In this document: positions 13,768-39,937 of the stretch, in pieces
Numbering within the stretch: position 1 is the stretch's first letter
Layout of the letters: each line of letters begins with the position of its first letter
Assembly (NCBI RefSeq): GCF_000172795.2
Contig: NZ_CP020952.1
Coordinates: 496,001 to 560,000 of the forward strand
Length of the DNA stretch: 64,000 nucleotides
Direction: 5' to 3'
Source: Rhizobium sp. CIAT894
GTDB lineage: Bacteria > Pseudomonadota > Alphaproteobacteria > Rhizobiales > Rhizobiaceae
Notes under the pieces: generated by a model
Database searches by the model: none
What the model was told of the DNA's origin: nothing
Seen by the model: the letters and a program-made list of their open reading frames with translations, nothing else
Made by a program: the position numbers and the translations under genes

Positions 13768-14655
13768 TCAACCGTGCAGCGATGCCGTCAGCCAGGCGGC
13801 GGCGAGGTCGCGGGCGTTGCTTCGCTTGGCTTTGACCGGCACGATCACGTTGTAACGCCCCTCCGCGGCAAGCTCGCTTTCCTCAGCGCGCACCAGCGTC
13901 CCGTCCTCGAGAAAGGTGCCGACCAGCATGCGCCATCCGAGCGCAATCCCCTGCCCGGCGCGCGCCGCGGCGATGCTCTCGGTATAATGGTTGAACCGCA
14001 GCGACGGTTTGACCTCGATACTGGAGCCGGTCAGGGCAACCCATTGCGACCAGTTGTACCAGGAACGGTCGACAACATCCGTTTCGATGAATTCGTCCGA
14101 CGAGCCGAGCGGACCATCTCCCCGACGCCTGAGGTAATCCGGAGAGCAGACGGGGGAGATGACGTCGCCGCGCGAGGCGATGACCGTCCCATCGCTGAAG
14201 GGAGGCAGACCGTAGCGGATCGCCACATCGACCTCTCCGCCGTCGAGAGCGATCGGACTGTCCTGGGATATCACCCGCACCAGAATGCCGGGATTGGCCC
14301 GGCGGAATTCGGCGAGCCGCGGCAGCAGCCAGAAGGAAGAGAATGCGACGGTTGCCCCGATCGTCACCACGTCCTGGCTGCGCGACTGGATCGCCTCCAC
14401 GCTCTCGGCGATATCGGCGAAACTCTTTGCCAGCGTCGCGCCGAGGCTGATGCATGCCGCCGTCGGCTCGATCGCCCGGTGCTTGCGCACAAACAGCGCC
14501 TGGCCGAGTTCCTCCTCCAGCAACGCAATCTGCCTGCTGACCGCCGCCTGGGTGACGCCGAGTTCAGTCGCTGCCAAGGTGAAGCTTTTCATGCGCAGCA
14601 CCGCCTCCAGCGTCACCAGTGCGGTCAGCGATGGAAGCCGCTTTCGAAATTGCAT
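13768..14655 (-). CDS. LysR-family regulator of the Rieske demethylase operon
   Basis: 295-residue LysR protein of the GcvA-like group: N-terminal helix-turn-helix (FTLAATELGVTQAAVSRQIA, about 25-44) and a two-lobed effector domain (about 95-290). It is transcribed divergently from the Rieske gene with 110 bases between the start codons, the usual layout for a regulator that controls the facing operon and itself. Effector is unknown; a betaine or its demethylation product is the natural candidate. Related regulators control glycine betaine or carnitine genes in other proteobacteria, but family membership alone does not identify the ligand. Confidence 0.88.
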   Translation of the reverse strand: MQFRKRLPSLTALVTLEAVLRMKSFTLAATELGVTQAAVSRQIALLEEELGQALFVRKHRAIEPTAACISLGATLAKSFADIAESVEAIQSRSQDVVTIGATVAFSSFWLLPRLAEFRRANPGILVRVISQDSPIALDGGEVDVAIRYGLPPFSDGTVIASRGDVISPVCSPDYLRRRGDGPLGSSDEFIETDVVDRSWYNWSQWVALTGSSIEVKPSLRFNHYTESIAAARAGQGIALGWRMLVGTFLEDGTLVRAEESELAAEGRYNVIVPVKAKRSNARDLAAAWLTASLHG

Positions 14656-14765: not shown

Positions 14766-16019
14766 ATGCTAAACAGGCTTCCATCTTCCATTTCAGCCCT
14801 TCTCGAAGCCCGTGCCGATGGCCACTCGCTGCCGGCCGGCCTCTATATAAGAGAAGACGTGTTCGAAGCAGACATCGACGTCTTCTTCCACAATCACTGG
14901 ATCTGTGTCGGCCTCGACTGTGACGTTGCCGAACCCGGCGACGCCACGGTGATCGACATCGGCAAGACGAGCCTGATCCTGCTGCGTGATGACGACGGCG
15001 AAATCCGCGTGCTGCACAATGTCTGCCGCCATCGCGGCTCCCGCCTTCTCAATCCGGGCAAGACGATCGTTTCGAAGCTCGTCTGTCCCTACCACACCTG
15101 GACCTATGAGCTGACGGGCGAACTCAGCTATGCCCCCCATATGGGCAAGGATTTCGACAAGGACTGCCGCGGCCTGAAACCGGTCACCTTCAAATCGATC
15201 GGCGGCCTGATCTACGTCTGCCTCTCCGACAATCCGCCCGAGGACATTGCCGGCCTCGAACAGGCGATGGTCGAGCGTCTGGCTCCCTATGACATCCGCA
15301 ATGCCAAGATCGCTCACCAGACCGACGTCATCGAAGACGGCAACTGGAAGCTGACGATGGAAAACAATCGCGAATGCTACCATTGCTCCGCCAACCACCC
15401 GGAACTCTGCGTCTCCTTCGTCGATCTCGACTTCGGCTTCGATCCCGAAACGCTGAGCCCGGAAGACCGCGAGCAGGCAGAGGAGCATTTCCGGCTGTAC
15501 GAGGAGCGCACGCAGGCGTGGGAGGCAGACGGTTTCCCCTCGGCTGCCATCGAGCAGCTCACCGACTGCGCCACGAACTTCCGCACACAGCGGCTGATCA
15601 TATCGGGCGCCGGCGAGTCCCAGACTCACGACGCCACCGCCGCATCCTCCAAGCTCCTCGGGCAGATGACCCGCAAGGATCTCGGCGACACGCATCTCTG
15701 GGGTCATAACAGCTGGAACCACTTCATGGGCGACCATGCGGTCGTGGCAACCGTCATCCCGCTCTCGGCCGGCAAGACGCTGGTCAGGACCAAGTGGCTG
15801 GTGCACAAGGACGCCGTCGAAGGGGTCGATTACGACCTCGACAAGCTGACGGATGTCTGGGTCGCAACGACGGACCAGGACGCCGACCTCGTCGCCCGTT
15901 CCCATGCCGGCGCTCTCGATCCCGCCTATCAGCCGGGCCCCTATTCCCGCTTCTCCGAGACGAACCTCGACAAGTTCGCCACTTGGTACATCGACCGGAT
16001 GCGCGCTCATGGGTATTGA
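14766..16019 (+). CDS. stc2: Rieske-type betaine N-demethylase (Stc2/GbcA family), probable proline betaine demethylase
   Basis: Oxygenase component (417 residues) that would use O2 and reduced ferredoxin to remove one N-methyl group as formaldehyde. The Rieske cluster ligands are Cys87-His89 (CRHRG) and Cys107-His110 (CPYHTW); the mononuclear iron site has His206 and His211 (ENNRECYHC, followed by ANHPEL) and an Asp near 373. Glu203 sits where most relatives have the bridging Asp; I recall Glu at this place as a feature of stachydrine demethylase Stc2. The next gene, overlapping by 11 bases, is the reductase. StcD, a ProC-like protein and PutA nearby favour proline betaine over glycine betaine, but the substrate is an inference. 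Confidence 0.85.
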   Translation: MLNRLPSSISALLEARADGHSLPAGLYIREDVFEADIDVFFHNHWICVGLDCDVAEPGDATVIDIGKTSLILLRDDDGEIRVLHNVCRHRGSRLLNPGKTIVSKLVCPYHTWTYELTGELSYAPHMGKDFDKDCRGLKPVTFKSIGGLIYVCLSDNPPEDIAGLEQAMVERLAPYDIRNAKIAHQTDVIEDGNWKLTMENNRECYHCSANHPELCVSFVDLDFGFDPETLSPEDREQAEEHFRLYEERTQAWEADGFPSAAIEQLTDCATNFRTQRLIISGAGESQTHDATAASSKLLGQMTRKDLGDTHLWGHNSWNHFMGDHAVVATVIPLSAGKTLVRTKWLVHKDAVEGVDYDLDKLTDVWVATTDQDADLVARSHAGALDPAYQPGPYSRFSETNLDKFATWYIDRMRAHGY

Positions 16020-17097
16020 TCTCACATCCATGCGTCTAGGTCAGAGCGCGCAGCAGGTCTGGGATCGGGAGACCGACGAGACCCTCGTCTGTCTCGATGT
16101 CCATCAGGAGACGCATGACGTGAAAAGCTTCACCTTCGCGTCGCCCGAAGGCAAGCATTTCCACTTCGATGCCGGCCAGTACTTTCTGTTCGACTTCCCC
16201 ACGGGTTCGGATGGCGAGGCGCGATGCTACAGCATCTCGTCGTCGCCCCATCGAACGAACGCCTTTACGGTGACGGTCAAGCGTGTGCCGGGCGGCAGGA
16301 TATCGAACTGGCTCCACGACCACATGGCGCCAGGTATGACCGTCAAGGGTCAGGGACCGCTTGGTCATTTCATCCGACCCAAGGGCGAGAAGATCAAGCT
16401 TCTGCTGCTCTCCGGAGGTTCGGGCATCACGCCCGTCATGTCGATCACACGTGATCTGGCAGACAGCTACGAAGCGTCGGACATTGTCTTCCTGCACGCG
16501 GCGAGAACGCCCGCCGATCTGATCTTTCGCCATGACCTTTCGGGGCTCGCAGCGAGGATGAAGCGACTGCGCCTCCAGTTTCTTCCCGAGACGGTCGCCG
16601 GCGAGTTATCTTGGCCGGGGCTGACCGGCCGGATCTCGCCGGAATTCCTCAAGCTTGCCGTTCCCGACATCGCTGGACGCGTCGTCATGTGCTGCGGTCC
16701 CGCGCCGTTCATGGCGGCGGCGCGTTCGATCACGGCGGCTCTCGGCGTCCCGGCAGAAAACTATATCGAAGAGAGCTTCGACGCCGCGGTCATCGACGAG
16801 CCAGGCCTCGACGTCGAAGCACAGCCGGCGACGAGGGCTTTCCAGGTCGAATTCTCGAAACAGAACAAGACATTGGCAGTCCCGTCAGACCAGACCGTGC
16901 TTTCAGCGGCAAAGAAAGGCAGCGTCCGCCTGCCTTCCTCTTGTGCGAACGGGGTCTGCGGGACCTGCAAGTCGAAGCTTGTCTCCGGTTCGGTGGAGAT
17001 GAACCACAATGGCGGCATCCGGCAGAGGGAAATCGACGCCGGCTTTTTCCTGCCCTGCTGCTCGAAGCCGCTCAGCGATCTCGTCATCGAACGCTGA
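16009..17097 (+). CDS. Ferredoxin reductase component of the Rieske demethylase (FAD, NAD(P)H and 2Fe-2S)
   Basis: 362-residue electron-transfer partner. FAD-binding motif RCYSIS (72-77), nicotinamide-binding GGSGITP (136-142) and a C-terminal plant-type 2Fe-2S domain with the Cys motif CANGVCGTC near 312-320 and a fourth Cys near 350. This layout matches GbcB and the reductases of carnitine and stachydrine demethylases. Its ATG lies inside the last codons of the Rieske gene (11-base overlap), so the two are translationally coupled. It passes electrons from NAD(P)H to the Rieske oxygenase. Confidence 0.9.
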   Translation: MGIDLTSMRLGQSAQQVWDRETDETLVCLDVHQETHDVKSFTFASPEGKHFHFDAGQYFLFDFPTGSDGEARCYSISSSPHRTNAFTVTVKRVPGGRISNWLHDHMAPGMTVKGQGPLGHFIRPKGEKIKLLLLSGGSGITPVMSITRDLADSYEASDIVFLHAARTPADLIFRHDLSGLAARMKRLRLQFLPETVAGELSWPGLTGRISPEFLKLAVPDIAGRVVMCCGPAPFMAAARSITAALGVPAENYIEESFDAAVIDEPGLDVEAQPATRAFQVEFSKQNKTLAVPSDQTVLSAAKKGSVRLPSSCANGVCGTCKSKLVSGSVEMNHNGGIRQREIDAGFFLPCCSKPLSDLVIER

Positions 17098-17137: not shown

Positions 17138-18418
17138 ATGTTGCGAGACGAAAACGATTCCGTCGAGCTGAGCGGCTCGACGGTCTTCAAGGACGAGCGG
17201 AAGCAGGCTTATCTCAATCCCGATGGGGCCGACCGGCCTCTCATCAGCCCTGTGCCGGCCGAAACGCTCGACCGGGCGCGCCGCTATCGGCTGGAGCGGC
17301 TGCGCATGAAGATGCGCGAGTGGGATTGCGGCGCCCTGCTGCTCTACGATCCCGTCAACATCCGCTATGCCTTCGACTCGTCGAATATGAGCATCTGGAC
17401 GATGCACAATCCCTCGCGCTACGCATTGATCCTGGCCGACGGCCCGGCCATCATTTTCGAATTCGAAGGCGCAGAACATGTCAATGACGGGCTCCCCGGT
17501 ATCGACGAGGTCCGGCCGGCGAAGTCCTGGATCTTCTTCACCGCCGGCAACCTCATAGAACCCCGCCTGAAAGCCTGGGTGGACGAGATCGCCGACCTGG
17601 TGACGGAAAATGGCGGCAACAGGCGTATCGCCGTCGACAGGCTCGAACCATCAGGCGCGTTCGAACTCACGGAACGCGGATTTACCCTCCTCGACGGCCA
17701 GGAACTGGCCGAGCGGGCGCGGTCGATCAAGAGCGCCGAGGAAATCGAGCTGATGCGCTGGACGATCCGCGTCTGCGAAGCAGGCATGGCGCGGATATAC
17801 GAGGTTTCCGAGCCGGGCCGCACCGAGCGGGAGCTCTGGGCCGAGCTGCACTTCGAAAACGCGCGCAGCGGCGGCGAGTGGCTCGAAACCAAGCTGTTGA
17901 CCGCCGGTCCGCGAACCAATCCCTGGTATCAGGAATGTTCGGATTATGTCGTCAAGCATGGAGAGATGATCTCCTTCGACACCGATATGATCGGCCCCTA
18001 CGGCTATTGCGCCGACCTCTCGCGCTCATGGACGTGCGGCCATGTCGCGATGAACGCCAAGCAGAAGGAGCTTTACGCGGCGGCCAGGAACCAGATCGAA
18101 CACAATCTGTCGGTCATCAAGCCCGGCATGACGTTCCGCGAGTTCAACGCGCTGTCGTGGCGGATTCCGGAAAAATACCAGCCTTATCGCTACACGCTGG
18201 CCCTGCACGGAACGGGCATGGCGGATGAGTGGCCGGGAGTGCTGCTGCATCCGGATTTCGATCCCGATTTCACCGGCATCATCGAGGAAGGCATGGTGCT
18301 CAACGTGGAAAGCCTGATCGCCGAAGCCGGATCGGAAAGCATCAAGCTGGAAACCCAGGCCCTGATCACGGCAAAGGGCGCGGAGCGGCTGGACACGTTT
18401 CCGTGGGAAGAGATCTGA
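17138..18418 (+). CDS. M24-family metalloenzyme closely resembling DMSP lyase DddP
   Basis: 426 residues with a creatinase/aminopeptidase-P fold. Metal-ligand pattern Asp281, Asp283 (SFDTD), Asp293 (ADLSRSW), His357 (LHGTGMADEWP), Glu391 and Glu405; Asp363 follows the His by six residues. These spacings match what I remember for DddP (D295, D297, D307, H371, E406, E421 and catalytic D377) almost exactly, and the stretches YDPVNIRYAFDSSNM and GGEWLETKLLTAGPRTNPW also look DddP-like. DddP cleaves dimethylsulfoniopropionate; other M24 relatives hydrolyse creatine or ectoine. Sitting 40 bases after the demethylase reductase, it probably acts on a related onium compound. ATG chosen after AGGGGAT. 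True substrate is unknown. Confidence 0.75.
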   Translation: MLRDENDSVELSGSTVFKDERKQAYLNPDGADRPLISPVPAETLDRARRYRLERLRMKMREWDCGALLLYDPVNIRYAFDSSNMSIWTMHNPSRYALILADGPAIIFEFEGAEHVNDGLPGIDEVRPAKSWIFFTAGNLIEPRLKAWVDEIADLVTENGGNRRIAVDRLEPSGAFELTERGFTLLDGQELAERARSIKSAEEIELMRWTIRVCEAGMARIYEVSEPGRTERELWAELHFENARSGGEWLETKLLTAGPRTNPWYQECSDYVVKHGEMISFDTDMIGPYGYCADLSRSWTCGHVAMNAKQKELYAAARNQIEHNLSVIKPGMTFREFNALSWRIPEKYQPYRYTLALHGTGMADEWPGVLLHPDFDPDFTGIIEEGMVLNVESLIAEAGSESIKLETQALITAKGAERLDTFPWEEI

Positions 18419-18445: not shown

Positions 18446-18576
18446 TTAGAGCATGTCGCGCAAAAGTGTGCCGCGGTTTTGCCAGGCAAGCGCGAAGCGC
18501 TTTTGCCGCAACGACATGCGTAAAAACAAAAACCTAAAGCACCAGGAGCGAATCTGAAAGATCGCGACGCGCTTTA
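18446..18576. repeat. RIME-like double-palindrome intergenic repeat, copy A
   Basis: Two adjacent imperfect palindromes: one bounded by GCATGTCG and CGACATGC, the other by CTAAAGC and GCTTTAG. Nearly the same sequence occurs inverted at 41907-42015 (copy C); copy A carries about 25 extra bases inside the first palindrome. The element fills the gap between two convergent genes and supplies the stop codon of the GlxA-type regulator. This is the structure described for rhizobial RIME elements. Confidence 0.7.
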
Positions 18577-19587
18577 GTGCGCTCTCGAAGCCGCCGCGCG
18601 ATGCTGCGACGGCGTCTGCCCGAAGGTGCGCTTGAAGGTTCTCGTGAACTGCGAGGCGTTTTCAAAGCCGACATCGAGCGCGATCTCGATCAGCGGCGCC
18701 TTCGACTGCACAAGGATCGATTTCGCCCGCTCCATGCGAACACGATTATAGGCCTTGGCCGGAGACATTCCCGTCTTTTCGATAAATATCCTCTCCAACT
18801 GCCGCCTGGAAAGACCCACCATGGCGGCAAGCTTCTCGATCGGCATGCTGCCGTCGACGAACTGTTCCATCGTGATCATCGCCGCCTTGACGCGGGCGTC
18901 GCCATAATCGTCGTACAGCGGGCGTCGAGGCTGGATATCCGCCGGAGTTCGGGCCTTCTCGATCTGAAGCACTTCAAGCGCGTTCCGTTCGGCATCGCGG
19001 CTGATATATTTCCTGACCAGCAGCGCCGCCATGTCGGCCGAGCTGCTGCCGCCCGCGCAGGATCCGCGCTGACGATCGAGATTGAAAAGCCGATCGGAAC
19101 GGACACTGAGATCGGGAAACCGTTCGCGAAACTCCTTGTAATGCAGCCAGCTGACGCAGGAATCATGCCGTTTCATCAGGCCTGCCTCGGCAAGAATGAA
19201 GGAACCTGTGCAGACGCCGATCAGCGGCACCTTCTTGGCGTCCGCCTGCTTGAGAAAGGCGATGGTCTGCTGATCGACGGGCTCCGCCACCGTCAGCAGT
19301 CCGCCGACGACGGCGATATAGTCGAACTTCAACGGATCGAGGAAATCCGACGTTGGAGCAACCTGAACGCCGCAGCTCGAGGTGATGAGGTGCCGCGTGC
19401 TGCCGATCACCTGCCAGTCGGCAAGCACCCTTCCGGAGCGATCCTGTTGATCGCTCGCAAGCCGCAGCGTATCCACGAAGAGCGCGAAGGCCGATAGCGT
19501 AAACGATCGCGACAGCACGAATCCCACTTTGAGCCTGGCACCGGATTTCGCGACGCCGTCTCCCTGTCGATGCTGCTCCGGTCGCAT
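18574..19587 (-). CDS. GlxA-type AraC-family regulator (DJ-1/PfpI-like domain plus HTH)
   Basis: 337-residue regulator: an N-terminal class-I glutamine-amidotransferase-like domain (about 18-200, with IGVCTGSFILAEAGL) and a C-terminal AraC helix-turn-helix pair (about 235-330, with MPIEKLAAMVGLSRRQLER and IALDVGFENASQFTRTF). This architecture is shared by GbdR, CdhR, ArgR-like and SouR regulators of glycine betaine, carnitine, arginine and sarcosine catabolism, which fits the surrounding genes. ATG at 19587 has GAGGAG six bases upstream; longer in-frame starts exist. It is the last gene of a co-directional run and only 40 bases after the racemase-family gene. Confidence 0.9.
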   Translation of the reverse strand: MRPEQHRQGDGVAKSGARLKVGFVLSRSFTLSAFALFVDTLRLASDQQDRSGRVLADWQVIGSTRHLITSSCGVQVAPTSDFLDPLKFDYIAVVGGLLTVAEPVDQQTIAFLKQADAKKVPLIGVCTGSFILAEAGLMKRHDSCVSWLHYKEFRERFPDLSVRSDRLFNLDRQRGSCAGGSSSADMAALLVRKYISRDAERNALEVLQIEKARTPADIQPRRPLYDDYGDARVKAAMITMEQFVDGSMPIEKLAAMVGLSRRQLERIFIEKTGMSPAKAYNRVRMERAKSILVQSKAPLIEIALDVGFENASQFTRTFKRTFGQTPSQHRAAASRAH

Positions 19588-19627: not shown

Positions 19628-20626
19628 TCATCGAATTTGAAAACCGTGTGCCAGCGGATCACGGTCGTCAACGAAAATGGTGTTGTGGCCGATGACCCGC
19701 GCCCAGCCGCCGATGCTTGGAAGGATCCCGCGATAGGATCCAATCCTTGCCTCGGCCTCGACCCGGCCCTCGAAAATGGTCCCGATCAGGCTTTCATGAC
19801 GGTATCTCGACCCGACGGCGAGCCGCCCCTTGCCATGGAGCTGGGCCATGCGCGCAGAGGTGCCGGTGCCGCCCGGCGACCGGTCGATGGCCTTGTCTCC
19901 GTAGAAAACCGCGCAGCGTCCGTCAGAGACGTCGTTCACGGGGCGGTCGCACCAGATCGCATGATGCACGCCTGATATTCTGGCGTCGTCGGGATGAACG
20001 GGATTGCAGACATCGGCAAGCGCCGATCTCAGCTTCTGGCTGCAGCCGACGATGTCGGAGGCGCTCATACCGTCGAGTCCACTCCAGTTCTCTTGCGGTT
20101 CGACGACCGCGTAATAATTGCCGCCATAGGAGATATCGACACGCAGACGGCCCATTCCGGGCACATCGACCTCGACATCGGCCTCATGGAGATAGCTCGC
20201 CACATTGTGGAGACGAACGGAATCGACATAACCGCCCTTCTCCTCATAGGTGACGTCGACCCTGCCGGCCGGCGTTTCGATCGCGACCCTTCCGGCTTCA
20301 CGCGGCTTGACCAGTCCCTCTTCGATCGCGGCAGTCACGGTGCCGATCGTGCCGGCGCCGCACATCGGCAGGCAGCCGCTGACCTCGATGAAAAGAACGG
20401 CGAAATCGCAGTCTTCCCGGTAGGGAGGGTAGATGATTGAGCCCGACATGATGTCATGCCCCCTCGGCTCGAACATCAGCGCCTTGCGGACCCAGTCGTG
20501 GTCGCGGACGAAGATTTCCCGACGTTCGCCCATTGGCGCGTGCGGAAGCAGCGGGCCGCCGCCGGCAACGAGACGGACAGGGTTGCCGCAGGTATGGGCA
20601 TCGATGCAGAAGAAGCTGTTTCTCAT
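19628..20626 (-). CDS. Proline racemase / hydroxyproline epimerase family protein with altered active site
   Basis: 332 residues with the diaminopimelate-epimerase-like fold of the proline racemase superfamily. The first catalytic Cys is present (Cys89 in MCGAG) but the neighbouring His of the usual MCGHG is Ala91, and the second catalytic Cys of DRSPCGTG is Gly252 (DRSPGGTG, confirmed in the DNA at 19871-19894). Racemases and 4-hydroxyproline 2-epimerases need two acid/base residues; 3-hydroxyproline dehydratases keep Cys plus Thr. Cys plus Gly fits neither, so a one-base reaction (dehydration, or an epimerase-like step on a betaine) or a non-catalytic role is possible. RBS AAGGA supports the start. 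It ends the importer operon. Confidence 0.85.
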   Translation of the reverse strand: MRNSFFCIDAHTCGNPVRLVAGGGPLLPHAPMGERREIFVRDHDWVRKALMFEPRGHDIMSGSIIYPPYREDCDFAVLFIEVSGCLPMCGAGTIGTVTAAIEEGLVKPREAGRVAIETPAGRVDVTYEEKGGYVDSVRLHNVASYLHEADVEVDVPGMGRLRVDISYGGNYYAVVEPQENWSGLDGMSASDIVGCSQKLRSALADVCNPVHPDDARISGVHHAIWCDRPVNDVSDGRCAVFYGDKAIDRSPGGTGTSARMAQLHGKGRLAVGSRYRHESLIGTIFEGRVEAEARIGSYRGILPSIGGWARVIGHNTIFVDDRDPLAHGFQIR

Positions 20627-20641
20627 TCCGTCATATCCTTC

Positions 20642-21493
20642 TCATCTCGCCTTCGGCAGCCTGCCGCGGTCGAGCAGACCGCGGGACAACCGGTCGAGCA
20701 GAAGGGCGACCGCGACGATCGCCAGGCCGGCCCTCAGGCCAAGCCCCATCTCCATGCGGGTCAGGCCACGCGTCACCTCGGCGCCCAGCCCGCCTGCACC
20801 GACGAGGCCGGCCAGCACCACCATGGCCAGCGACAGAAGAATGCACTGGTTGAGCCCGACCAGCAGCGTCTGCTTGGCCAGGGGGATTTCGATCTTCCAG
20901 AGGATCGAGCGCGGCGGCGCGCCGATGGCGCTGCCGAGTTCGATGAAGACCTTCGGCACCTGGTTGAAAGCCAGCGTCGTCAAACGCAGCATCGGCGGAA
21001 TGCCATAGACGATGGTGGCGATGATCGCCGGCACGCGCCCAAGGCTGAAAATCATCACCGCGGGAATGAGATAGACCCATGGCGGCACGGTCTGCATCAC
21101 GTCGAGGATCGGCCGAACCACCGCCTCCAGCGTCTTGTGGCGAGAGCACAGGACGCCGATCGGAAAGGCGATGAGCACCGAGATCATGACGGCGACGCTG
21201 ACCAGCGCAAGGGTCTGCATCGATGCCGTCCACAGCCCGACAAGCAAGCAGAAGCCGAGGCAAAGACCGGCAAGGATTGCGGCGCGCAGGCTGACGGCAA
21301 AGAATGCCAGCACGACGACGATCGCGATCAGCGCATAGGGCGGCACGAAGAGCAGCGCCGCCTCGATTGCCGAAAGCACCGTTTCCACCAGATAGCTGAT
21401 GGCCGCAAACAGCGGGTGAAGATTGGTATTGAGCCAATCGACCGATGGCGCCAGAAAGGCGCCGGGCGAAAACTGCAAGGTCGAAAGATTCAT
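20642..21493 (-). CDS. Glycine/proline betaine ABC importer, permease 2 (ProW type)
   Basis: 283-residue inner-membrane protein with about six to seven helices and the binding-protein-dependent permease signature (ELGSAIGAPPRSILWKIEIP, about 195-215). It overlaps the upstream permease gene by four bases (ATGA), so the two subunits are translated together and likely form a heterodimer with the ATPase encoded upstream. GGAGG-like RBS seven bases before ATG. Part of the OpuA/ProU superfamily that imports betaines as osmoprotectants or carbon sources. Confidence 0.92.
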   Translation of the reverse strand: MNLSTLQFSPGAFLAPSVDWLNTNLHPLFAAISYLVETVLSAIEAALLFVPPYALIAIVVVLAFFAVSLRAAILAGLCLGFCLLVGLWTASMQTLALVSVAVMISVLIAFPIGVLCSRHKTLEAVVRPILDVMQTVPPWVYLIPAVMIFSLGRVPAIIATIVYGIPPMLRLTTLAFNQVPKVFIELGSAIGAPPRSILWKIEIPLAKQTLLVGLNQCILLSLAMVVLAGLVGAGGLGAEVTRGLTRMEMGLGLRAGLAIVAVALLLDRLSRGLLDRGRLPKAR

Positions 21494-22338
21494 GCTTTCC
21501 TCCCTGTTCCCAAGCGAGCGGCACTCTGGGTTATCCGGTCAATCACCATGGTCAATACCACGATGGCGATCGCTCCATTGATTGAGGTGGCGATGTCGAG
21601 TGTCCTGATCGCGCCGTAGATGGTCTCTCCGAGCCCGCCGGAACCGACGATGCCGGCGATGACGACCATGCCGAAGGCCATCATCAGGCTCTGGTTGATG
21701 CCCGCCATGATGCTCGGCAGCGCAAAGGGAAGACGGATCTTGAAGAACATTTTTGCCGGCGTCATCCCGAGCGCCTCCCCGAGTTCGATGAATTCCTTGG
21801 GAGTCATGCGGATGCCGAGCGAGGTTAGGCGGATCGCCGGTGGCACGGCGACGATCACGGTCGCAATCAGCGCCGTCGCCGGCCCATAACCGAGCAGGGC
21901 GATCGCCGGCAGCAGATAGATATAGGGCGGCATCGTCTGGATCAGATCGAGGCCCGGCTCCATGAAACGATCGAGAGCAGTGAAAAAGCCGGCGGCGATA
22001 CCGATCGGGATGCCGATCGCCAAGGCGATCACGGTCGCGGTCAGGACAAGAGCGAGCGTGCTCATCGTCTCCGGCCAGAGCCCCATCGAAAAACAAAGCG
22101 CCAGCGCGACGCCGCTCACGAGGCCGAACCAGAGATTGACCGCCCGCCAGCCGATGAGCGCCACGACCAGGGCGATCACGTAGAAGGGCGGAAGCTGCAG
22201 GAGCCAGAGGATGCCGTCATAAAGCCCTTCGAGAACCTGTCTGATATAGTCGAAGAGGAACTCCCCGTTGTCGCTCACCCATTCGAGCGCTGCGTCCGTC
22301 CATTCGTCGAAAACATCGGTGAAGGCTGAACTATCCAT
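21490..22338 (-). CDS. Glycine/proline betaine ABC importer, permease 1 (ProW type)
   Basis: 282-residue permease with an N-terminal helix near 20-45, a central block of membrane helices and the coupling motif ELGEALGMTPAKMFFKIRLP (about 185-205). ATG at 22338 is placed nine bases after GGAGGTGA; a GTG at 22347 lies inside that ribosome binding site and is less likely. It is related to its neighbour permease but not close, pointing to an old duplication. Both lie downstream of the ATPase gene by 21 bases. Confidence 0.92.
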   Translation of the reverse strand: MDSSAFTDVFDEWTDAALEWVSDNGEFLFDYIRQVLEGLYDGILWLLQLPPFYVIALVVALIGWRAVNLWFGLVSGVALALCFSMGLWPETMSTLALVLTATVIALAIGIPIGIAAGFFTALDRFMEPGLDLIQTMPPYIYLLPAIALLGYGPATALIATVIVAVPPAIRLTSLGIRMTPKEFIELGEALGMTPAKMFFKIRLPFALPSIMAGINQSLMMAFGMVVIAGIVGSGGLGETIYGAIRTLDIATSINGAIAIVVLTMVIDRITQSAARLGTGRKA

Positions 22339-22359
22339 GTCAATCACCTCCAGTTGGGG

Positions 22360-23451
22360 TCACGCCGCCGTGAGATCGTGGGCGGAGGTCCCCTTGACAC
22401 CCATCAGCAGGCTGCGCGGCGTGACCACGCCGACGACCTGATCATTGTCGACGACGGCGATGGCGTCGCGCTCCGACTGCATCGTCAAAGAGATGAGCTC
22501 GTCGATATCGGCGTCCGGCGTCGTGCGCGCCAGCGAGGCAATGTCGAAGGTCGGCGCCCCTTGCTGGAATTCGGCGACACTGCGCATGACGGAATGCGCC
22601 TTGATCAGATGCAGGCGGGAGATGCCCGCGACGAATTCGGCGACGTAGGCGTCCGCCGGGTTGAGGATGATTTCCTCGGCCGTGCCGGTCTGGATGATGA
22701 CGCCGTCCTTCATGATCGCAATGCGGTCGCCGATGCGGATCGCCTCGTCGAGATCATGGGTGATGAAGACGGCGGACTTGCCGAGAGCTTTGGTCAGTTG
22801 GCGGAATTCATCCTGAAGCTGGCGCCGAATCAGCGGGTCGAGCGCGCTGAACGGCTCGTCCATCAGGATGATCTCGGGATCGGAGGCGAGCGCCCGGGCA
22901 AGCCCGACGCGTTGCTGCATGCCGCCGGAAAGCTCACTGGGATAACGGCTCAGCCAGTCGGCAAGGCCGACCTTCTCGAGCGCGGCGGCAGCGGTCTTGT
23001 TCCGCTCCGCCTTCGCAATGCCCTGGACCTCGAGGCCGAAGGCCGCATTTTCGAGGACGGTGCGATGCGGCAGGAGAGCGACGCTCTGAAACACCATGCC
23101 GATATTCTTGGCGCGCATCTGCCTGAGATCGACCGGCGACAGGCTGGCGAGATCGCGTCCCTTGACCAGGACCTTGCCGGAGTTCGGCGTGATCAGCTTG
23201 TTGAGAAGGCGGATGAGCGTCGATTTTCCGCTTCCCGACAGTCCCATGATACAGAAGATTTCGCCGCGCCGGACTTCGATGCTCGCGTCGGAGACGCCGA
23301 CGACGCAGTTGAATTGCTTGAGGACCTCTGTCTTGCCGAGGCCTCGCTCCTTGATCGATTTCATCGCGGCGGCGGATTTGCCTCCGAAGACCTTCCAGAG
23401 GGATTGGCAGTCGATCAGGACATCCGTGGCATCGATATTGGCGGTTTTCAT
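22360..23451 (-). CDS. Glycine/proline betaine ABC importer, ATPase (ProV type) with C-terminal CBS-like region
   Basis: 363-residue ATPase: Walker A GLSGSGKST, signature LSGGMQQRVGLARAL, Walker B EIILMDEPFSALD, H-loop FITHD. The 100 residues after the ATPase core (from about 265, ending in a VDNDQVVGVVTPRSLL stretch) look like CBS-type regulatory sequence, as in ProV/OpuAA where it senses ionic strength or nucleotides. RBS AAGGGGA lies eight bases before the ATG. It follows the binding-protein gene across an 84-base gap that contains a strong hairpin. Confidence 0.93.
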   Translation of the reverse strand: MKTANIDATDVLIDCQSLWKVFGGKSAAAMKSIKERGLGKTEVLKQFNCVVGVSDASIEVRRGEIFCIMGLSGSGKSTLIRLLNKLITPNSGKVLVKGRDLASLSPVDLRQMRAKNIGMVFQSVALLPHRTVLENAAFGLEVQGIAKAERNKTAAAALEKVGLADWLSRYPSELSGGMQQRVGLARALASDPEIILMDEPFSALDPLIRRQLQDEFRQLTKALGKSAVFITHDLDEAIRIGDRIAIMKDGVIIQTGTAEEIILNPADAYVAEFVAGISRLHLIKAHSVMRSVAEFQQGAPTFDIASLARTTPDADIDELISLTMQSERDAIAVVDNDQVVGVVTPRSLLMGVKGTSAHDLTAA

Positions 23452-23500
23452 AGCGATCCCCTTTGAGCCAATGGCGCTGGCTTCTTCATTCGGTTTGAAG

Positions 23501-23528
23501 GTGGCCGCCCGACGGATCGGGCGGCCAC
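23501..23528 (-). other. Strong hairpin between binding-protein and ATPase genes
   Basis: Perfect 12-bp stem GTGGCCGCCCGA / TCGGGCGGCCAC with a 4-base loop, 7 bases after the stop codon of the binding-protein gene. No T-run follows, so it is more likely a partial terminator or an RNA-stabilising hairpin that raises binding-protein levels over downstream subunits. Confidence 0.6.
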
Positions 23529-23535
23529 GATGCGA

Positions 23536-24387
23536 TTACTTCTTCTTGATGTTTTCCCAGCGCTTGATCAGGTCGGCATGGCTGCCGATCCAATCCTGCA
23601 CAGCCTGGTCCATGGTCTTGCCGTCCTTGACTTCGCCGTTGATGGTCGTGATGTCGGCAATCGGCACGTAGACGCTGGCCATGACTTCGCGGGCATGCGG
23701 ATATTCTTCGGAGAAGCCCTTATGGCCGATCCAGTAGTAGCTCTGCGGCGGCGGGAAGACGCCCTTCGGATCCTTGAGGTACTTGACCTCGTACTTCTGG
23801 ACCATCCACGACGGCTCCCAGATCGTGACCGCGATCCATTCCTGGCGATCGTAGGCAGACTTCAGCGCCGCCGTCATCGCGGCGGTGCTGCCTTCGACGA
23901 GCTGGAGTTTCAGGCCGTAATCCTTGACCGCATTCGCAGTATCGCGCATCAGGCCGGCGCCCGGTTCAATGCCGATGATCTTGCCGCCGAACTTATCGGC
24001 GTTTTCATTGAGCTGTTCGAGCGAGTCGATCGGAACGTATTTCGGAACGGCGACGCCCTGATAGAGGCCGTGCGAAACCGGAGAGATCTTCTCGAGACGG
24101 TTCTTGTTCTTGTCCCAATAATCCTGGGCCACGTAGTCGGTCTGCGAGGTCAGAGCCTGGATATCGCCCTTGGCAAGAGCGGCATAGGCGATGCCCCATT
24201 CGGAGAACTCGGTCACCTTCACGGTGTAGCCTGCGTCTTCGAGAACCTTCTTGGTGATGCCGGTGATGGGCGTCAGGTCTTCCCACGCCATCGTGCCCAG
24301 ATTGATGGTCTTTTCTTCCGCGCGGGCAGGCAGGATACTCATCCCGATCACCGCAGCGGCGCAAAGCGCCTTCCACAAAGTCTTCAT
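23536..24387 (-). CDS. Glycine/proline betaine ABC importer, periplasmic binding protein (OpuAC/ProX type)
   Basis: 283 residues with a Sec signal peptide (MKTLWKALCAAAVIGMSILP, cleavage likely after ARA at 23). The mature protein has the type II binding-protein outline and aromatic residues typical of a quaternary-ammonium cage (MAWEDLTP, TIWEPSWMVQKY, YYWIGHKG). The exact ligand cannot be read. AGGAG lies nine bases before the ATG. It sits between the FAD enzyme gene (76 bases upstream) and the ATPase gene in one co-directional run. Confidence 0.92.
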   Translation of the reverse strand: MKTLWKALCAAAVIGMSILPARAEEKTINLGTMAWEDLTPITGITKKVLEDAGYTVKVTEFSEWGIAYAALAKGDIQALTSQTDYVAQDYWDKNKNRLEKISPVSHGLYQGVAVPKYVPIDSLEQLNENADKFGGKIIGIEPGAGLMRDTANAVKDYGLKLQLVEGSTAAMTAALKSAYDRQEWIAVTIWEPSWMVQKYEVKYLKDPKGVFPPPQSYYWIGHKGFSEEYPHAREVMASVYVPIADITTINGEVKDGKTMDQAVQDWIGSHADLIKRWENIKKK

Positions 24388-24463: not shown

Positions 24464-25810
24464 TCATCCCTCGCGACCTGCACGCAACTCCTGCAAACGG
24501 ATCACCGCATTGATGCCCAGCCATGCGAACGGCTCGGGGGGGATCTTCGACGGTCCGGCGTGATCCATATATTCTTCGAGATGCCGGGAGGTGGTCCCGG
24601 TAGCCAGTTCGGCCGCCATCATACCGGCAAGCGTGCTCTTGACGGTTCCCAGTCCGTTCTCGCAGCACGCGGAGTAAAGTCCTTCTTCGACTTCGCCGAA
24701 GGCGGGCACATGGTTCAGGCTGAGGCATATGCGCCCGGCCCAGCTATGCTCGAACGGGATGCCCTTGAGGCCGGGGAAACGTGCATCCAGCGAGCGCCGA
24801 TGTTCCTCGGCCATTGCCCGTAGCCGACGCTCGGTCAACGCTATGGTCGTGTCATAGGTCCATCGCGTTCTGAGCACGATGCGCGACTGACCGCCTGATG
24901 TGATCTTGCGAACGGTCGCCCCCATGGCGTCCGCCGGAAGCAGCGCCCATCTGTCGCGGCCACTGGCCTTGCGTCCGAGGTCTTCCGCCGCGAAGGGAGC
25001 AGTCATCGAGGCATAGCCATAGAAGTGCATCAGACGGCGGCGGTAGTACCCGAAGTCGTTGATATGACCGTTGACGCCCACGATCACCTTGGATGCGGTT
25101 ACCGTGCCCTGCGGAGAAGCCGCCGTCCAGGTTCCGTTTTCGCGCTTCAGTGAAGTAACCGGCGAGTGTTCGAAAATGTCGACCTTGCCCGAGAGCCCGG
25201 CAGCAATCGCGCGGATATAATCGGCAGGCTGGATCAGAACGGCACCCGGCGTAAAGACGCCGCCGAAGTAATAATCCGATCCCGTGATCTCGCGCATCTC
25301 CGCCGCATCGAGGAAACTATGCTTCTCGCCGGCGCCCTTCAGTGACTCGCCGAAGCTCCGGTTCAGCTTCATGCCCCGTTCCGTGGCCGCCGCATTGATC
25401 TTCCCCGCGGGATCGAATGTCTCCCGCGACATGCAGTATTCCTCCGCGGCTTGTGCGGCAAAAGCGATCGCGGAGCGGTTTTGCGCCATCTCCAAGCGGG
25501 TCGCATCCACCTCTCCGCTCGAATATTCGCCGCCCGCCAGATTATGCGGGACGTCGATCATGAAGCCGGAGTTCCGGCCGGACGTGCCTTTGCCGACCTC
25601 GCTCGCATCGAGGACGACAATCTTGTCGTCCGGTCGAAGCTGGAGGAGACGGCGGGCCGTAGAGAGGCCCGCAAAGCCGGCGCCGACAATCAGCCAGTCT
25701 GCAGTAACGTTGCCTTCCAGGCTTCGGACCGGGAACGAACGCTTGCTGATCGCCTCCCAGCCCGAGATGCCATTCTCAACCGGCAGACGTTTGACCGGTC
25801 TCGTGATCAT
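24464..25810 (-). CDS. FAD-dependent amine/amino-acid oxidoreductase (DAO family)
   Basis: 448 residues with an N-terminal dinucleotide-binding motif (DWLIVGAGFAGLSTARRLLQ, about 38-57), the SGRNSGF flavin loop, and a C-terminal FAD-anchoring segment (ENGLGTVKSTLAGM). It resembles gamma-glutamylputrescine oxidase and D-amino acid or sarcosine-type dehydrogenases; which is not clear. In the operon it follows an ALDH (4-base ATGA overlap) and a DapA-family gene, as in 4-hydroxyproline catabolism where an FAD enzyme oxidises cis-4-hydroxy-D-proline. It would act in the cytoplasm on an imported amine or imino acid. Confidence 0.85.
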   Translation of the reverse strand: MITRPVKRLPVENGISGWEAISKRSFPVRSLEGNVTADWLIVGAGFAGLSTARRLLQLRPDDKIVVLDASEVGKGTSGRNSGFMIDVPHNLAGGEYSSGEVDATRLEMAQNRSAIAFAAQAAEEYCMSRETFDPAGKINAAATERGMKLNRSFGESLKGAGEKHSFLDAAEMREITGSDYYFGGVFTPGAVLIQPADYIRAIAAGLSGKVDIFEHSPVTSLKRENGTWTAASPQGTVTASKVIVGVNGHINDFGYYRRRLMHFYGYASMTAPFAAEDLGRKASGRDRWALLPADAMGATVRKITSGGQSRIVLRTRWTYDTTIALTERRLRAMAEEHRRSLDARFPGLKGIPFEHSWAGRICLSLNHVPAFGEVEEGLYSACCENGLGTVKSTLAGMMAAELATGTTSRHLEEYMDHAGPSKIPPEPFAWLGINAVIRLQELRAGREG

Positions 25811-27324
25811 CGGATCGTCTCGTCGATCGACCGCTCCGAGATATCGATCCAGATGGTCTTGAGCTCGCAGTAATTGTCGTGGGCGAAGACCGACTTGTCG
25901 CGGCCGCCGAAACCGGACTCCTTGTAGCCGCCGAACGGGGTCGAGGCATCGCCCTCGCCGAAGCAGTTGACGGTGACGAGGCCGGCGCGGATGTCGCGGG
26001 ACAGCCGGATCGCATTGCGCAGACTGCCGGTATAGATCGACGCGGTCAGGCCGTAATTGGTGTCGTTGGCAAGTGCGGTGGCCTCGGCCAGGTTTTCGAA
26101 GGTCGTGACAGAAAGGATCGGTCCGAAAATTTCCTCCTGGAACAGCCGGCTCTTCGGCGTGACGCCGTCGACCACCGTCGGCTCGATGAAGGCCCCTTCA
26201 AAAGTTTCGCCGCCATGGGCGAGCGAGAGTTTTTCGGTCTTCACGTCATCGAGGAAGGATTTCACCTTCTCGAAATGGCTCTTGCTGACCAGTGCACCGA
26301 TGCGGTTTTCCGGGTTCAACGGGTCACCCGTCTTCCATTCGCGCATATAGGCGCCGATACGCTGCAGCAGTTCGTCCTTGATGCTGGCATGGACGATCAG
26401 GCGCGACGTGGCCGAGCAGTTCTCGCCCATGTTCCAGAAGGCGCCGTTGACCACCTGCTCGGCGACGAGATCGAGGTCTTCGGCATCCGCCAACACCACC
26501 GCCGGGTTCTTGCCGCCGCATTCGAGCACGACCTTCTTGAGGTTCGAGTCCGCGGCGTAACGCAGGAAGCGGCGGCCGGTCGGCGTCGATCCGGTGAAGG
26601 CCACCATATCGACGTCCATGTGCAGGCCGATCGGTTCGCCGACCTCCCGGCCGGAGCCGGTAACAACGTTGAACACACCGGCCGGAATACCGGCTTCATG
26701 GGCAAGCTCGGCGACGCGCAGCGTCGTGAGCGTCGTTTCCTGCGCCGGCTTGACGATGACCGAGCAGCCGGCGGCGAGCGCCGGGCCGATCTTCCAGGCC
26801 AGCATCAGCAGCGGGAAGTTCCACGGCAAAACGCAGCCAACGACGCCGATCGGCTCGCGCACCACCATGGCCAACGCATTGGCGCCGACATTGTTGGTGT
26901 TGTCGTAGATTTTGTCGATAAGCTCGGCATGCCAGCGGATCGTATGAATGGTATCGGGAACGTCGACCGTCTGGCATTCGCGCACCGGCTTGCCGCTGTC
27001 GAGGCTTTCCAGGACAGCGAGTTCGTGCCTGTTCTGCTCCATCAGCTTGGCGAGCTTCAGCAGCACTTCCTTGCGCTCGCCCGGCGAGCGCAGCCGCCAG
27101 CGTCCGTCATCGAACGCATCCTTCGCCTTCTGCACCGCAAAGTCGACGTCGCTGGAATCGCAGGCTGCGATTTCGGCAAGGACCTCGCCTGTCGCAGGGT
27201 TCGTGGTGGTGAAAGTCTTGCCGGAATTTGCCGGACGAAATGCGCCGTCGATGAAGGCGTTCGTCGGAAACTGAAGTTCGGCGGCGATCGCCTTATATTC
27301 GGCGGCGGTCAAGGGTTCATGCAT
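25807..27324 (-). CDS. NAD(P)-dependent aldehyde dehydrogenase
   Basis: 505-residue ALDH with Asn in LPWNFPL, the general base Glu in LECGGKNP and the nucleophile Cys in NMGENCSAT. It is closest in feel to PuuC/betaine-aldehyde-type enzymes acting on amino-aldehydes. It overlaps the DapA-family gene by 8 bases and the FAD gene by 4, so translation is coupled. In a hydroxyproline-like scheme it would oxidise 2-oxoglutarate semialdehyde to 2-oxoglutarate; alternatively it would oxidise the aldehyde made by the FAD enzyme from an amine. Confidence 0.9.
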   Translation of the reverse strand: MHEPLTAAEYKAIAAELQFPTNAFIDGAFRPANSGKTFTTTNPATGEVLAEIAACDSSDVDFAVQKAKDAFDDGRWRLRSPGERKEVLLKLAKLMEQNRHELAVLESLDSGKPVRECQTVDVPDTIHTIRWHAELIDKIYDNTNNVGANALAMVVREPIGVVGCVLPWNFPLLMLAWKIGPALAAGCSVIVKPAQETTLTTLRVAELAHEAGIPAGVFNVVTGSGREVGEPIGLHMDVDMVAFTGSTPTGRRFLRYAADSNLKKVVLECGGKNPAVVLADAEDLDLVAEQVVNGAFWNMGENCSATSRLIVHASIKDELLQRIGAYMREWKTGDPLNPENRIGALVSKSHFEKVKSFLDDVKTEKLSLAHGGETFEGAFIEPTVVDGVTPKSRLFQEEIFGPILSVTTFENLAEATALANDTNYGLTASIYTGSLRNAIRLSRDIRAGLVTVNCFGEGDASTPFGGYKESGFGGRDKSVFAHDNYCELKTIWIDISERSIDETIR

Positions 27325-28228
27325 GATTGGCTCCCGACGTGATCTGGGCGACCGTGCGCTTCAATGTGGCGACGACGGTCTGAAGGGTTCGCTTTTCTTC
27401 GGAGTTGAGCGGGCGCAGCGGGGCACGGACCGATCCGACATTCAGCCCGATCAATTCGCAGCCGTGCTTGATCGACTGGACGAACTTGCCGCATTCGAGG
27501 AAATCCATGAGCGGCAGCATCGCGCTCATGATCGCCCGGCCCTTGTCGAAATTCTTCTCGATGACGCAGGCCTCGTAGAGGGCGACATGCTCGCGCGGCA
27601 GGAAGTTGGAGCCGGCGCAGACCCAGCTCTTTGCACCCCAGGCGAAGAATTCGAGCGCCTGGTCGTCCCAGCCGCAGGACAGAGAAATGTGCGGGAATTT
27701 CCGGGCAAGCAGATGAAGATTGCCCATATCGCCGGAGCTTTCCTTGATGGCGACGACGTTCTTCGACTTGCCGACGCGCGCGAAATACTCCTCGCCCATC
27801 ACCACGCCCATGCGGGCGGGATAGTTGTAGAGCATGATCGGCAGGTTGGCGGCGCGATCGACCGTCAGCGCATGGACCGCATTTTCGCGTTCGGTCGGCA
27901 ATGCGTATGGCGGCGACGACACCAGGATCGCATCCGCGCCGATTTCCTTCGCAGCCTTGGCATATTCGACCGAATCTTCGGTCCGCGTGGCGCCGGTACC
28001 GATGATGAGCGGCAACCGCGTCCCAATGACGTCCTTCGCATAGGCTGCAAGTTCGTACCGTTCCTGGCTGCTCTGGGCGTAGTATTCGCCCGTCGAGCCG
28101 CCGACGATGATGCCGTGGACGCCCGCTTCGATCAGCGACTCGAGCACGGCGGCAAATCCGGCCCGGTCGATCTGTCCGTTCTTATCGAGCGGCGTTACCG
28201 CCGGCGTATAGATCCCCTCAAATTTCAC
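27317..28228 (-). CDS. DapA-family lyase/deaminase (dihydrodipicolinate synthase superfamily)
   Basis: 303 residues, class I aldolase barrel. Schiff-base Lys in VVAIKESSG (near 160), Tyr in LYNYPAR (near 133) and the GGSTGEYYAQS phosphate-like loop (near 43) are all present, so it should be catalytic. Catabolic members include pyrroline-4-hydroxy-2-carboxylate deaminase (hydroxyproline pathway), keto-deoxysugar dehydratases and N-acetylneuraminate lyase. The first structural gene after the GntR regulator, joined to it by an ATGA overlap. It is not the biosynthetic DapA by context. Confidence 0.88.
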   Translation of the reverse strand: MKFEGIYTPAVTPLDKNGQIDRAGFAAVLESLIEAGVHGIIVGGSTGEYYAQSSQERYELAAYAKDVIGTRLPLIIGTGATRTEDSVEYAKAAKEIGADAILVSSPPYALPTERENAVHALTVDRAANLPIMLYNYPARMGVVMGEEYFARVGKSKNVVAIKESSGDMGNLHLLARKFPHISLSCGWDDQALEFFAWGAKSWVCAGSNFLPREHVALYEACVIEKNFDKGRAIMSAMLPLMDFLECGKFVQSIKHGCELIGLNVGSVRAPLRPLNSEEKRTLQTVVATLKRTVAQITSGANHA

Positions 28229-29274: not shown

Positions 29275-29847
29275 TTACGAGGCGAGGACGCCGCTCTTCT
29301 TGGCGGTCCAGGTGGCGATATAGTCCATCAGGCCAGGTGACAGGCAGTCATAGGGCTCCAGGCCCGACGCCTTCAGCTGCCCCCTGACGGCGTCCATCTT
29401 TGACGGATCGAAGCCGCTTTCGATGATCGATGATACGAAGGCCGCAAAGGTCGGCTTTGCCCAGCCGCCCTCCTGAAAACGCTCAGGATGAACGAACGAC
29501 AGCCCCTGAAAGGGATGTTCACGCTCGACGGGCCCGTACATATGCACGCCGCACTGCTTGCAGGCATGCCGCTGGATCAGGGCCGCGGGATCGACGACGG
29601 CGAGCTTGTCGCCGTTCTCGAGCACTTCGACGTTTTCCGTCGGCGCTACCGCCACGACCGAGAAGACTGCTCCCTCGGGCTTCCAGCATTTGGTGCAGCC
29701 GCAGGCGTGGTTGTGGGCGATGTCGCCCTTGATTTTCACCTTGACCGGATTGCTCGTGCATTTGCACACGAGCGTCCCGCCCGCGAAAGCAGCGTCAGTC
29801 GCTCGAAAGCCTGAATCCACTGCTGGATGAATGGCGATGCTACTCAT
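29275..29847 (-). CDS. gfa: Glutathione-dependent formaldehyde-activating enzyme
   Basis: 190-residue zinc protein that promotes condensation of formaldehyde with glutathione to S-hydroxymethylglutathione. The zinc-binding Cys motifs are present: CKC (28-30), CGCTKC (49-54) and CKQCGVH (near 96-102). Length and motifs match Gfa of Paracoccus and rhizobia. ATG at 29847 was chosen because it begins the conserved N-terminus and has GGAGAG upstream. It ends the adhC-fghA-gfa set, which removes the formaldehyde released by the two demethylases encoded nearby. Confidence 0.93.
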
Positions 29848-29902
29848 TGCTTCTCTCCTTCCCTCCCTGGCCGTTTGCGATATGCCCGGCCGAGCTCTGC
29901 AA

Positions 29903-30739
29903 TTACTTTCCCAGCCTCTGCGCATGCCAGCGCAGATGGTCCTCCATGAATGTCGAAATGAAGAAGTAGGAATGGCCGTAGCCTTCCTGCATGCGCAGCG
30001 ACAATCCGATGCCCGCCGCCTCGCAGGCCTGCCGAAGCTCGTCGGGACGCAAGCCATCCTCCAGGAAGCTGTCCGCCGTTCCCTGATCGACAAACAGTTC
30101 GGGGAACCGATGCCCGTCCTCGATCAGCGAGCAGGCGTCATAGGCCCGCCAGGTCGCCTCGTCGGCGCCTAGATATTTCCGCAAGGCCGGCTTCGACCAG
30201 CCGGAGACCGAGGGATGGCTGATCGGCGCGAAGGCTGAGCAGCTCCGGAAGAGGTCCGGATTCTTGAGCGCGATGGTGATCGCACCATGGCCGCCCATCG
30301 AGTGACCGAAGATCCCCTGGCGGTCCATGTCGGCGGGGAAATGTTCGGCGATGAGCCGCGGCAACTCGTCGACGATGTAGCTGTACATGCGATAATTCGC
30401 CGAATAGGGCGGCTCTGTAGCGTCGACGTAGAAGCCGGCGCCCTTGCCGAACTGCCAGTTGTCGGGCTCGTCGGCAACATGGTCGCCGCGAGGGCTGGTA
30501 TCCGGGCAGACGATGATCAGTCCGAGTTCGGCGGCAAGCCGCCGATACTCGCCCTTGTCCATGACATTGGCATGCGTGCAGGTCAGGCCGGACAGATACC
30601 ATAGAACCGGCAGCTTGCCCTTAGCGGCCTGCGGCGGCACGAAGACCGCAAAGGTCATATCGCAATCGCAGGCCTCGGAGCGGTTGACGTAAACCCCTTG
30701 GGTGCCGCCGTAGGACTTATCGGTCGAGATCGTCTTCAT
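29903..30739 (-). CDS. fghA: S-formylglutathione hydrolase
   Basis: 278-residue esterase-D-type alpha/beta hydrolase releasing formate and glutathione from S-formylglutathione. The nucleophile is Ser147 in GHSMGG; Asp in VDQGTADSF and His in GYGHSYFF complete the triad. The ATG at 30739 lies two bases after the adhC stop codon, so the two genes are coupled; a TTG at 30745 inside adhC is unlikely to be used. Product formate has no clearly assigned formate dehydrogenase in the window. Confidence 0.95.
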
Positions 30740-30741
30740 TC

Positions 30742-33582: not shown

Positions 33583-33607
33583 GATGGTTGCTCCTGTTCC
33601 AACCCGA

Positions 33608-34357: not shown

Positions 34358-34379
34358 GGGCAACCCCCCTTTAATTTCT

Positions 34380-35108: not shown

Positions 35109-35154
35109 ATCATCCCTCCCGAGACGATCGGCCGACAAATGGCCGCTCCAGCAA

Positions 35155-38773: not shown

Positions 38774-38840
38774 CAACCGTTGGGGCGGGCACTGCGGCAC
38801 CCCGCTCGGCAAGATCAGCCGCTAAACAGAGGGAACGAGA

Positions 38841-39842: not shown

Positions 39843-39853
39843 CACTGACTATC

Positions 39854-39876
39854 GCGGTGCGCCAAAAGCGCACCGC
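39854..39876 (+). other. Hairpin between binding-protein and permease genes
   Basis: Perfect 9-bp stem GCGGTGCGC / GCGCACCGC with a CAAAA loop, 12 bases after the binding-protein stop, followed by TTCTC. A partial terminator or mRNA-stabilising element that would favour expression of the binding protein over the membrane subunits. Confidence 0.6.
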
Positions 39877-39937
39877 TTCTCACTCGCCGATAAAAACAAA
39901 AAGACTGCCGCGGCTCTTTGAAGAAAAGGGGAACCGA

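Follow-up and report, generated by a model that had tools for sequence, protein, structure and literature searches.

A DddP-like M24 protein encoded beside a Rieske demethylase-type oxygenase in Rhizobium sp. CIAT894

In Rhizobium sp. CIAT894 (RefSeq assembly GCF_000172795.2), positions 496,001 to 560,000 of contig NZ_CP020952.1, a stretch of 64,000 nucleotides that we call the window, carry the gene of a 426-residue M24 metalloenzyme that resembles DddP, a lyase of dimethylsulfoniopropionate (DMSP). The protein, called M24 below, keeps the metal-binding and catalytic residues of DddP, belongs to a different branch of the family and is encoded in an operon conserved among rhizobia, directly after a Rieske oxygenase of the N-demethylase type and its reductase. 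We tentatively favour, at slightly less than an even chance, the view that M24 is a di-metal enzyme acting on a small onium carboxylate in the proline-betaine route, working beside the Stc2-like Rieske demethylase, and that it is neither a DMSP lyase nor a peptidase.

M24 residues, fold and branch

The reading frame of M24 is open throughout, and the orthologue in the related locus L036 is annotated with an identical start and length. The protein passes the gathering cut-off of PF00557 and has the pita-bread fold, placing it in the M24 peptidase-like superfamily; RefSeq names its orthologues as members of the Xaa-Pro peptidase family. Its top PDB matches are DddP structures, 4rzy (RlDddP; E 7.3e-88, 37.6% identity over 383 columns) and 4b28 (RdDddP; E 6.9e-85), with which it shares a GPRTNPW stretch; a sequence-only reading of the window had noted long DddP-like stretches. 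The six metal ligands and the catalytic Asp claimed there are likewise all found in the alignment to RlDddP: Asp281, Asp283, Asp293 and His357 of M24 correspond to Asp295, Asp297, Asp307 and His371, and Asp363, Glu391 and Glu405 to Asp377, Glu406 and Glu421. Tyr352 and Trp87 correspond to Tyr366 and Trp95 of DddP. In the RdDddP study, Asp377 is the preferred base and Tyr366 the other candidate (PMC4108388).

These residues occur throughout the family. DddP-like M24 proteins were collected from 385 alphaproteobacterial genomes, including that of the window, from the top 80 of 464 relatives, taken as named loci, and from plasmids. A match at E <= 1e-60 was present in 78/385 genomes, 12 of them above the DddP cut-off. 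The 202 proteins were reduced to 181 by removing exact duplicates and to 113 by clustering at 82% identity; with the window protein they make 114 rows, which leave out L001-L005, the M24 genes of the window's genome, and L128-L129. Each of the seven named residues is found in 104 to 114 of the 114 rows, most of which belong to branches other than DddP. The metal ligands are present in 113 or 114 rows and the Tyr366 position holds Tyr in 113; the Asp377 position is Asp in 104 rows (Gly in 8), and the Trp95 position is Trp in 95 (Phe in 14). Thus, although M24 has the six ligands, Tyr366 and Asp377 that might define a DddP, such a match cannot by itself argue for DMSP cleavage.

By score and by tree, M24 lies outside DddP. 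Against the NCBI equivalog model NF043017 it reaches 361.5 bits, the cut-off being 600. In a tree of the 114-row set (quick search, with support from the Shimodaira-Hasegawa-like approximate likelihood ratio test), the two DddP enzymes of known structure and the high-scoring DddP rows sit within a 28-row clade (support 89), whereas M24 falls in a 39-row clade (support 98) whose rhizobial part has a support of 99. A topology uniting ten DddP rows with five rhizobial rows in one exclusive clade was rejected by the approximately unbiased test (p-AU 3.9e-44). At 44 positions, one of them a gap, at least nine of the ten DddP rows and at least 85% of the 38 clade members differ in letter, as at Arg258/Ser244, Phe122/His114 and Phe416/Glu400 (DddP/clade). 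M24 and DddP also differ in gene context. Because of the tree, the rejected clade and the family-wide residues, the DddP-like M24 proteins form a broad family of which DddP is one twig.

M24 is not placed with the DoeA-like proteins or the peptidases either. The DoeA-like rows (support 100) and the prolidase are separated from it by a long, fully supported branch. M24 scores 46.9 bits against the DoeA model (cut-off 575), although the DoeA-like rows of the tree are themselves below that cut-off (0/61 genomes with a match above it). The sequence-only reading had proposed such a phylogeny, with a place outside DddP among peptidases or ectoine hydrolases as the outcome that would count against it; the first part of this outcome was found and the second was not. 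Of its three suggestions, namely an enzyme for a nitrogen betaine, a new branch of the family or a real DMSP lyase, the separate branch is borne out and the DMSP lyase is disfavoured.

Xaa-Pro dipeptidases and aminopeptidase P (1pv9, 5cnx, 1a16) share the pita-bread fold and the core metal ligands with M24. Two histidines of the Pyrococcus furiosus prolidase, catalytic according to work on aminopeptidase P, align with Tyr264 and Asp363 of M24, DddP having Phe and Asp there. These replacements at the M24B active-site histidines suggest that M24 is not a peptidase. In ectoine hydrolase DoeA/EutD (6twj) and creatinase (7yto, 1chm), the M24 fold has likewise been recruited for small non-peptide substrates.

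The residues invoked in the literature for DMSP cleavage by DddP are thus common to a large soil and marine family. We know of no tested member of this family outside DddP. DddP-like matches in surveys need not imply DMSP cleavage. The origin of DddP, which has been called the most widely distributed DMSP lyase gene of bacteria (PMC5395565), becomes directly testable, and M24 is a concrete candidate for new chemistry in plant-betaine breakdown by root-nodule bacteria.

The conserved operon and its variants

The placement of M24 after an N-demethylase and its reductase, as first read from the sequence, was confirmed; the reductase gene ends 40 bp before that of M24. The best PDB match of the Rieske protein is the demethylase 4qup, which we take to be Stc2 of Sinorhizobium meliloti, and the iron-site motif is as in that structure (ENNRECYHCSANHPELC in the window protein, ENNRECYHCSSNHPALC in 4qup). 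The oxygenase and reductase form a pair as in the Stc2 and GbcAB systems, which to our knowledge contain no M24 protein. With 408 bits against a curated cut-off of 670, the Rieske protein falls short of the GbcA model, and a better GbcA match (508.7 bits) exists elsewhere in the genome. Besides the gene of the window, the genome has three GbcA-family Rieske genes (G000:C1:932840-934069, C3:51325-52575 and C1:3727051-3728235), the first being a better candidate for a glycine betaine monooxygenase than the Rieske gene of the window.

In 36/37 rhizobial loci with an M24 at least 75% identical to that of the window, a reductase gene lies within 300 bp and a Rieske gene within 2.5 kb; these loci are close relatives and not independent events, and in one (L157) the reductase and Rieske proteins are just 36-40% identical to those of the window. 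The LysR-type regulator gene is kept in 35 of the 37, and in 22 an epimerase-family gene is found at a distance of up to 9 kb, with only ~30% identity in two cases. M24 itself is patchy, a match at E <= 1e-40 being found in 51/150 relatives. In Paraburkholderia (~50% identity), the LysR, Rieske, reductase, M24 and hydroxyproline-type genes again stand together. In Neorhizobium alkalisoli, the Rieske, reductase and M24 genes are next to formaldehyde, electron transfer flavoprotein (Etf) and Old Yellow Enzyme (OYE) family genes; the part of the locus in view also includes an enolase-family gene and, at 29%, a weak match to the proline-racemase family, and no match to dihydrodipicolinate synthase (DHDPS), a flavin adenine dinucleotide (FAD) oxidase or an aldehyde dehydrogenase. 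Elsewhere, in Streptomyces sp. B-S-A6 (L164) and Mycobacterium sp. 141 (L168), M24 proteins are ~70% identical to the rhizobial ones, by gene transfer or from contaminating contigs. In Loktanella salsilacus (L042:9785-16941), the distance between an annotated DddP gene and a Rieske gene (55% to that of the window) is ~1.5 kb, and reductase and OYE genes follow.

In 33/52 loci at 60-75% identity, mostly from roseobacters and metagenome bins and partly close relatives, the M24 gene has a gene for a HalD-like oxygenase of the Fe/2-oxoglutarate type on its own strand, no more than 150 bp away. The gene is often ~12 bp from the M24 gene of this sister clade (L173:9195-9989 and 32 further loci), and is directly upstream of it in the two loci inspected, L170 and L173. 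Among representatives, 17/197 sides had a HalD-like gene within 600 bp, against 1/611 sides for the bins that cover 600 bp to 8 kb; it is the one gene clearly tied to M24 adjacency. An HxD motif distinguishes hydroxylases and demethylases from halogenases. The HalD-like protein has a conserved WHFD (HxD) motif where HalB has WHWG, so that it is more likely to be a hydroxylase or demethylase than a halogenase. Since a Rieske gene stands beside M24 in the rhizobial loci and a HalD-like gene in those of 60-75% identity, oxygenases of two unrelated kinds seem to occupy this place.

A proposed role and its alternatives

The neighbouring gene set, together with an OYE gene that matches one on S. meliloti pSymB, lets the region be read as one for proline-betaine and hydroxyproline(-betaine) catabolism. 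On the reading that we favour, the substrate of M24 would be stachydrine, betonicine or a demethylation intermediate. The metal pair held by Asp281, Asp283, Asp293, His357, Glu391 and Glu405 would bind the carboxylate, Trp87 and Tyr352 might form an aromatic cage around the methylated cationic nitrogen, and Asp363 would remove the C-alpha proton. Beta-elimination might follow in a substrate with a beta leaving group, or C-alpha proton exchange in one without. As stachydrine and betonicine have no such leaving group, another substrate that has one, reprotonation of the enolate or hydrolytic chemistry would be needed. DddP would then be one twig of the family specialised on DMSP.

Several points weigh against this proposal. 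Its chief weakness is that the annotated route (importer, two demethylases, epimerase, oxidase, deaminase and dehydrogenase) has no vacant step for M24. In stachydrine and betonicine the nitrogen is on C-alpha, for which a beta-elimination of the DddP type is unfitting. The Trp87 loop has a predicted local distance difference test score below 50 in the structure model. Finally, the M24 genes of other branches have corrinoid methyltransferase or folate-dependent flavoenzyme neighbours, and we dropped their enrichment as proof of a link to demethylation: it is not significant against distant genes, with MTTB adjacent in 10/194 and at 5.5 kb in 3/140 (p 0.25) and GCV_T in 10/194 and 4/140 (p 0.41). 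Rieske genes were adjacent in 3/121 (they are not among the families listed for the other 73) versus 5/140 at a distance. These pooled counts cover the 25 commonest families per set, with genes from a simple caller that overlooked the hydroxyproline epimerase and the divergent cupin when it was tried on the window. In the openly licensed literature, we found no paper on DddP together with Rieske enzymes, on DddP with glycine betaine and the M24 family, on hydroxyproline betaine with Rieske, demethylase and epimerase, or on J391, 3841 and DMSP together in Rhizobium leguminosarum.

The alternative that survives best, though we consider it unlikely, is a cytosolic imidodipeptidase or amidase that would release proline, hydroxyproline or the N-methyl form of either from small conjugates to feed the hydroxyproline and PutA pathways. 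The M24 fold, the RefSeq label, hydroxyproline genes within 10 kb and 3-hydroxyproline dehydratase-like neighbours in L168 and L039 (beside an annotated DddP), both below cut-off, agree with such a role, whereas the Tyr and Asp in place of the two prolidase histidines do not. No activity on Val-Pro could be measured for RlDddP (PMC5395565), and DddP has Phe and Asp at these places. In addition, an epimerase-family gene is absent from the 9 kb around M24 in 15/37 rhizobial loci, in some of them because the contig ends.

A working lyase of DMSP, or of dimethylsulfoxonium propionate (DMSOP), in a rhizobium is quite improbable; betaine importers may also import DMSP, which would explain the betaine context. 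Every catalytic residue of DddP is present and an intact cupin of the DMSP-lyase type lies 16 kb off, but the residues are family-wide, the DddP score is below cut-off and no common clade with DddP is found. That no YhdH/AcuI equivalog scores above cut-off in the genome is a mild further point. We dropped a published statement that Rhizobium does not catabolise DMSOP (PMC10686828) as evidence against DMSP cleavage by M24; plasmids pRL9-pRL12 of strain 3841, the replicons searched, have no orthologue and just two weak M24 matches (28-29% identity).

We give a similarly low chance to a C-alpha epimerase or racemase of proline-type betaines, in which the enolate would be reprotonated with Asp363 and Tyr352 as acid/base groups. 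DddP chemistry is proposed to begin with C-alpha proton abstraction (PMC4108388), and enolase-family 2-epimerases are known for such betaines (PMC5144071). Nevertheless, the cluster already holds a 4-hydroxyproline epimerase, and enolase-family genes near some family members would make the step redundant. Least probable is an idle or non-enzymatic protein retained for another role, which would suit a pathway without a vacant step but not the intact, nearly invariant metal and base residues or the tight operon of 36/37 loci.

DMSP_lyase cupins and surrounding genes

The window also encodes two cupins of the Pfam DMSP_lyase family (Table 1). In the intact copy the metal-site residues of DddQ (His, His, Glu, Tyr, His) are all kept in the alignment; it was scored and aligned as 34506-35222, its start being set by the 600-bp length of the orthologues. 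The divergent copy does not keep the second His, the Glu and the Tyr, and had no PDB match at E 0.01. Cupins above cut-off occur in 43/78 genomes with a DddP-like M24, the window's included, and in 3/78 without (the lowest-numbered of the 307 lacking a match), one of these three passing only with its neighbours in frame. The counts, which ignore common ancestry and lifestyle, are 36/57 versus 3/28 for genomes of at least 3 Mb, and 37/66 versus 3/78 once the 12 genomes with a DddP above cut-off are removed. The idea that cupins are general direct neighbours of M24 was dropped: a cupin lies within 25 kb in just 4/78 genomes (<1 kb in G355, ~13 kb in the window's genome and G274, ~21 kb in G034), and short contigs hide others.

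It is conceivable, though doubtful, that both rhizobial proline-betaine demethylation steps have an accessory from a DMSP-lyase superfamily, M24 with the Rieske enzyme and the cupin with the StcD-like enzyme, that marine DddP and DddQ/DddL are both offshoots of nitrogen-betaine enzymes, and that C-alpha proton chemistry is ancestral. If so, two unrelated folds would serve nitrogen betaines.

Table 1. Features of the window, with strand and evidence
Feature	Position	Strand	Evidence
LysR-type regulator	13768..14655	-	L036 orthologue annotated LysR substrate-binding; divergent from the Rieske gene
Rieske oxygenase, Stc2/GbcA type	14766..16019	+	NF058607, 408.3 bits (cut-off 670); 4qup, E 8.2e-102
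Reductase, GbcB type (FAD, NAD, 2Fe-2S domains)	16009..17097	+	NF058606, 298.9 bits (cut-off 500); Pfam; start from simple gene caller
DddP-like M24 metalloenzyme, 426 aa	17138..18418	+	Open frame, profile, tree, alignment
GlxA/GbdR-like AraC-type regulator	18574..19587	-	GbdR model, 198.7 bits (cut-off 480); start as in L036, 1014 bp
4-Hydroxyproline epimerase	19628..20626	-	NF010578, 584.6 bits (above cut-off 376)
Betaine-type ATP-binding cassette (ABC) importer: two permeases, ATPase, OpuAC binding protein	20642..24387	-	Family scans; permease 20642-21493 named from L036
FAD oxidoreductase (DAO), aldehyde dehydrogenase, DHDPS family	24464..28228	-	Pfam; remaining steps of the trans-4-hydroxyproline route
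Gfa, S-formylglutathione hydrolase, class III alcohol dehydrogenase	29275..31869	-	GFA and ADH domains; names from L036 orthologues
Cupin, DMSP_lyase, divergent copy	31945..32637	-	PF16867, 80 bits
EtfA and EtfB	32653..34363	-	Named from sequence
Cupin, DMSP_lyase, intact copy	34506..35105	-	PF16867, 185.7 bits; DddQ alignment
OYE-family flavoenzyme, StcD-like N-methylproline demethylase	35155..37191	-	Family scan; S. meliloti pSymB match
Pyrroline-5-carboxylate-reductase-like gene (169.4 bits, cut-off 196.75) and second betaine ABC importer	37979..41900	+	Permease and ATPase named from sequence

The epimerase, importer, FAD oxidoreductase, aldehyde dehydrogenase and DHDPS-family genes correspond to the enzymes reported to act on trans-4-hydroxyproline and its betaine (PMC4113996), and the genes at 29275..31869 are those of glutathione-dependent formaldehyde oxidation. 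The OYE gene matches an S. meliloti pSymB gene in two segments, at 94% and 85% identity, and the pSymB gene adjoins the cupin gene corresponding to that of the window. As pSymB carries stcD, the N-methylproline demethylase gene (PMC12239276), we infer that the OYE gene is probably StcD. In S. meliloti ml21, the StcD-like OYE gene (L220:6916-8948) gives two matching segments in different frames with a short overlap of a few bases, through a frameshift or a sequencing error. Lastly, the 2.7-Mb genome G086 (L073, L079) has four DddP-like M24 matches, three of them within 14 kb.
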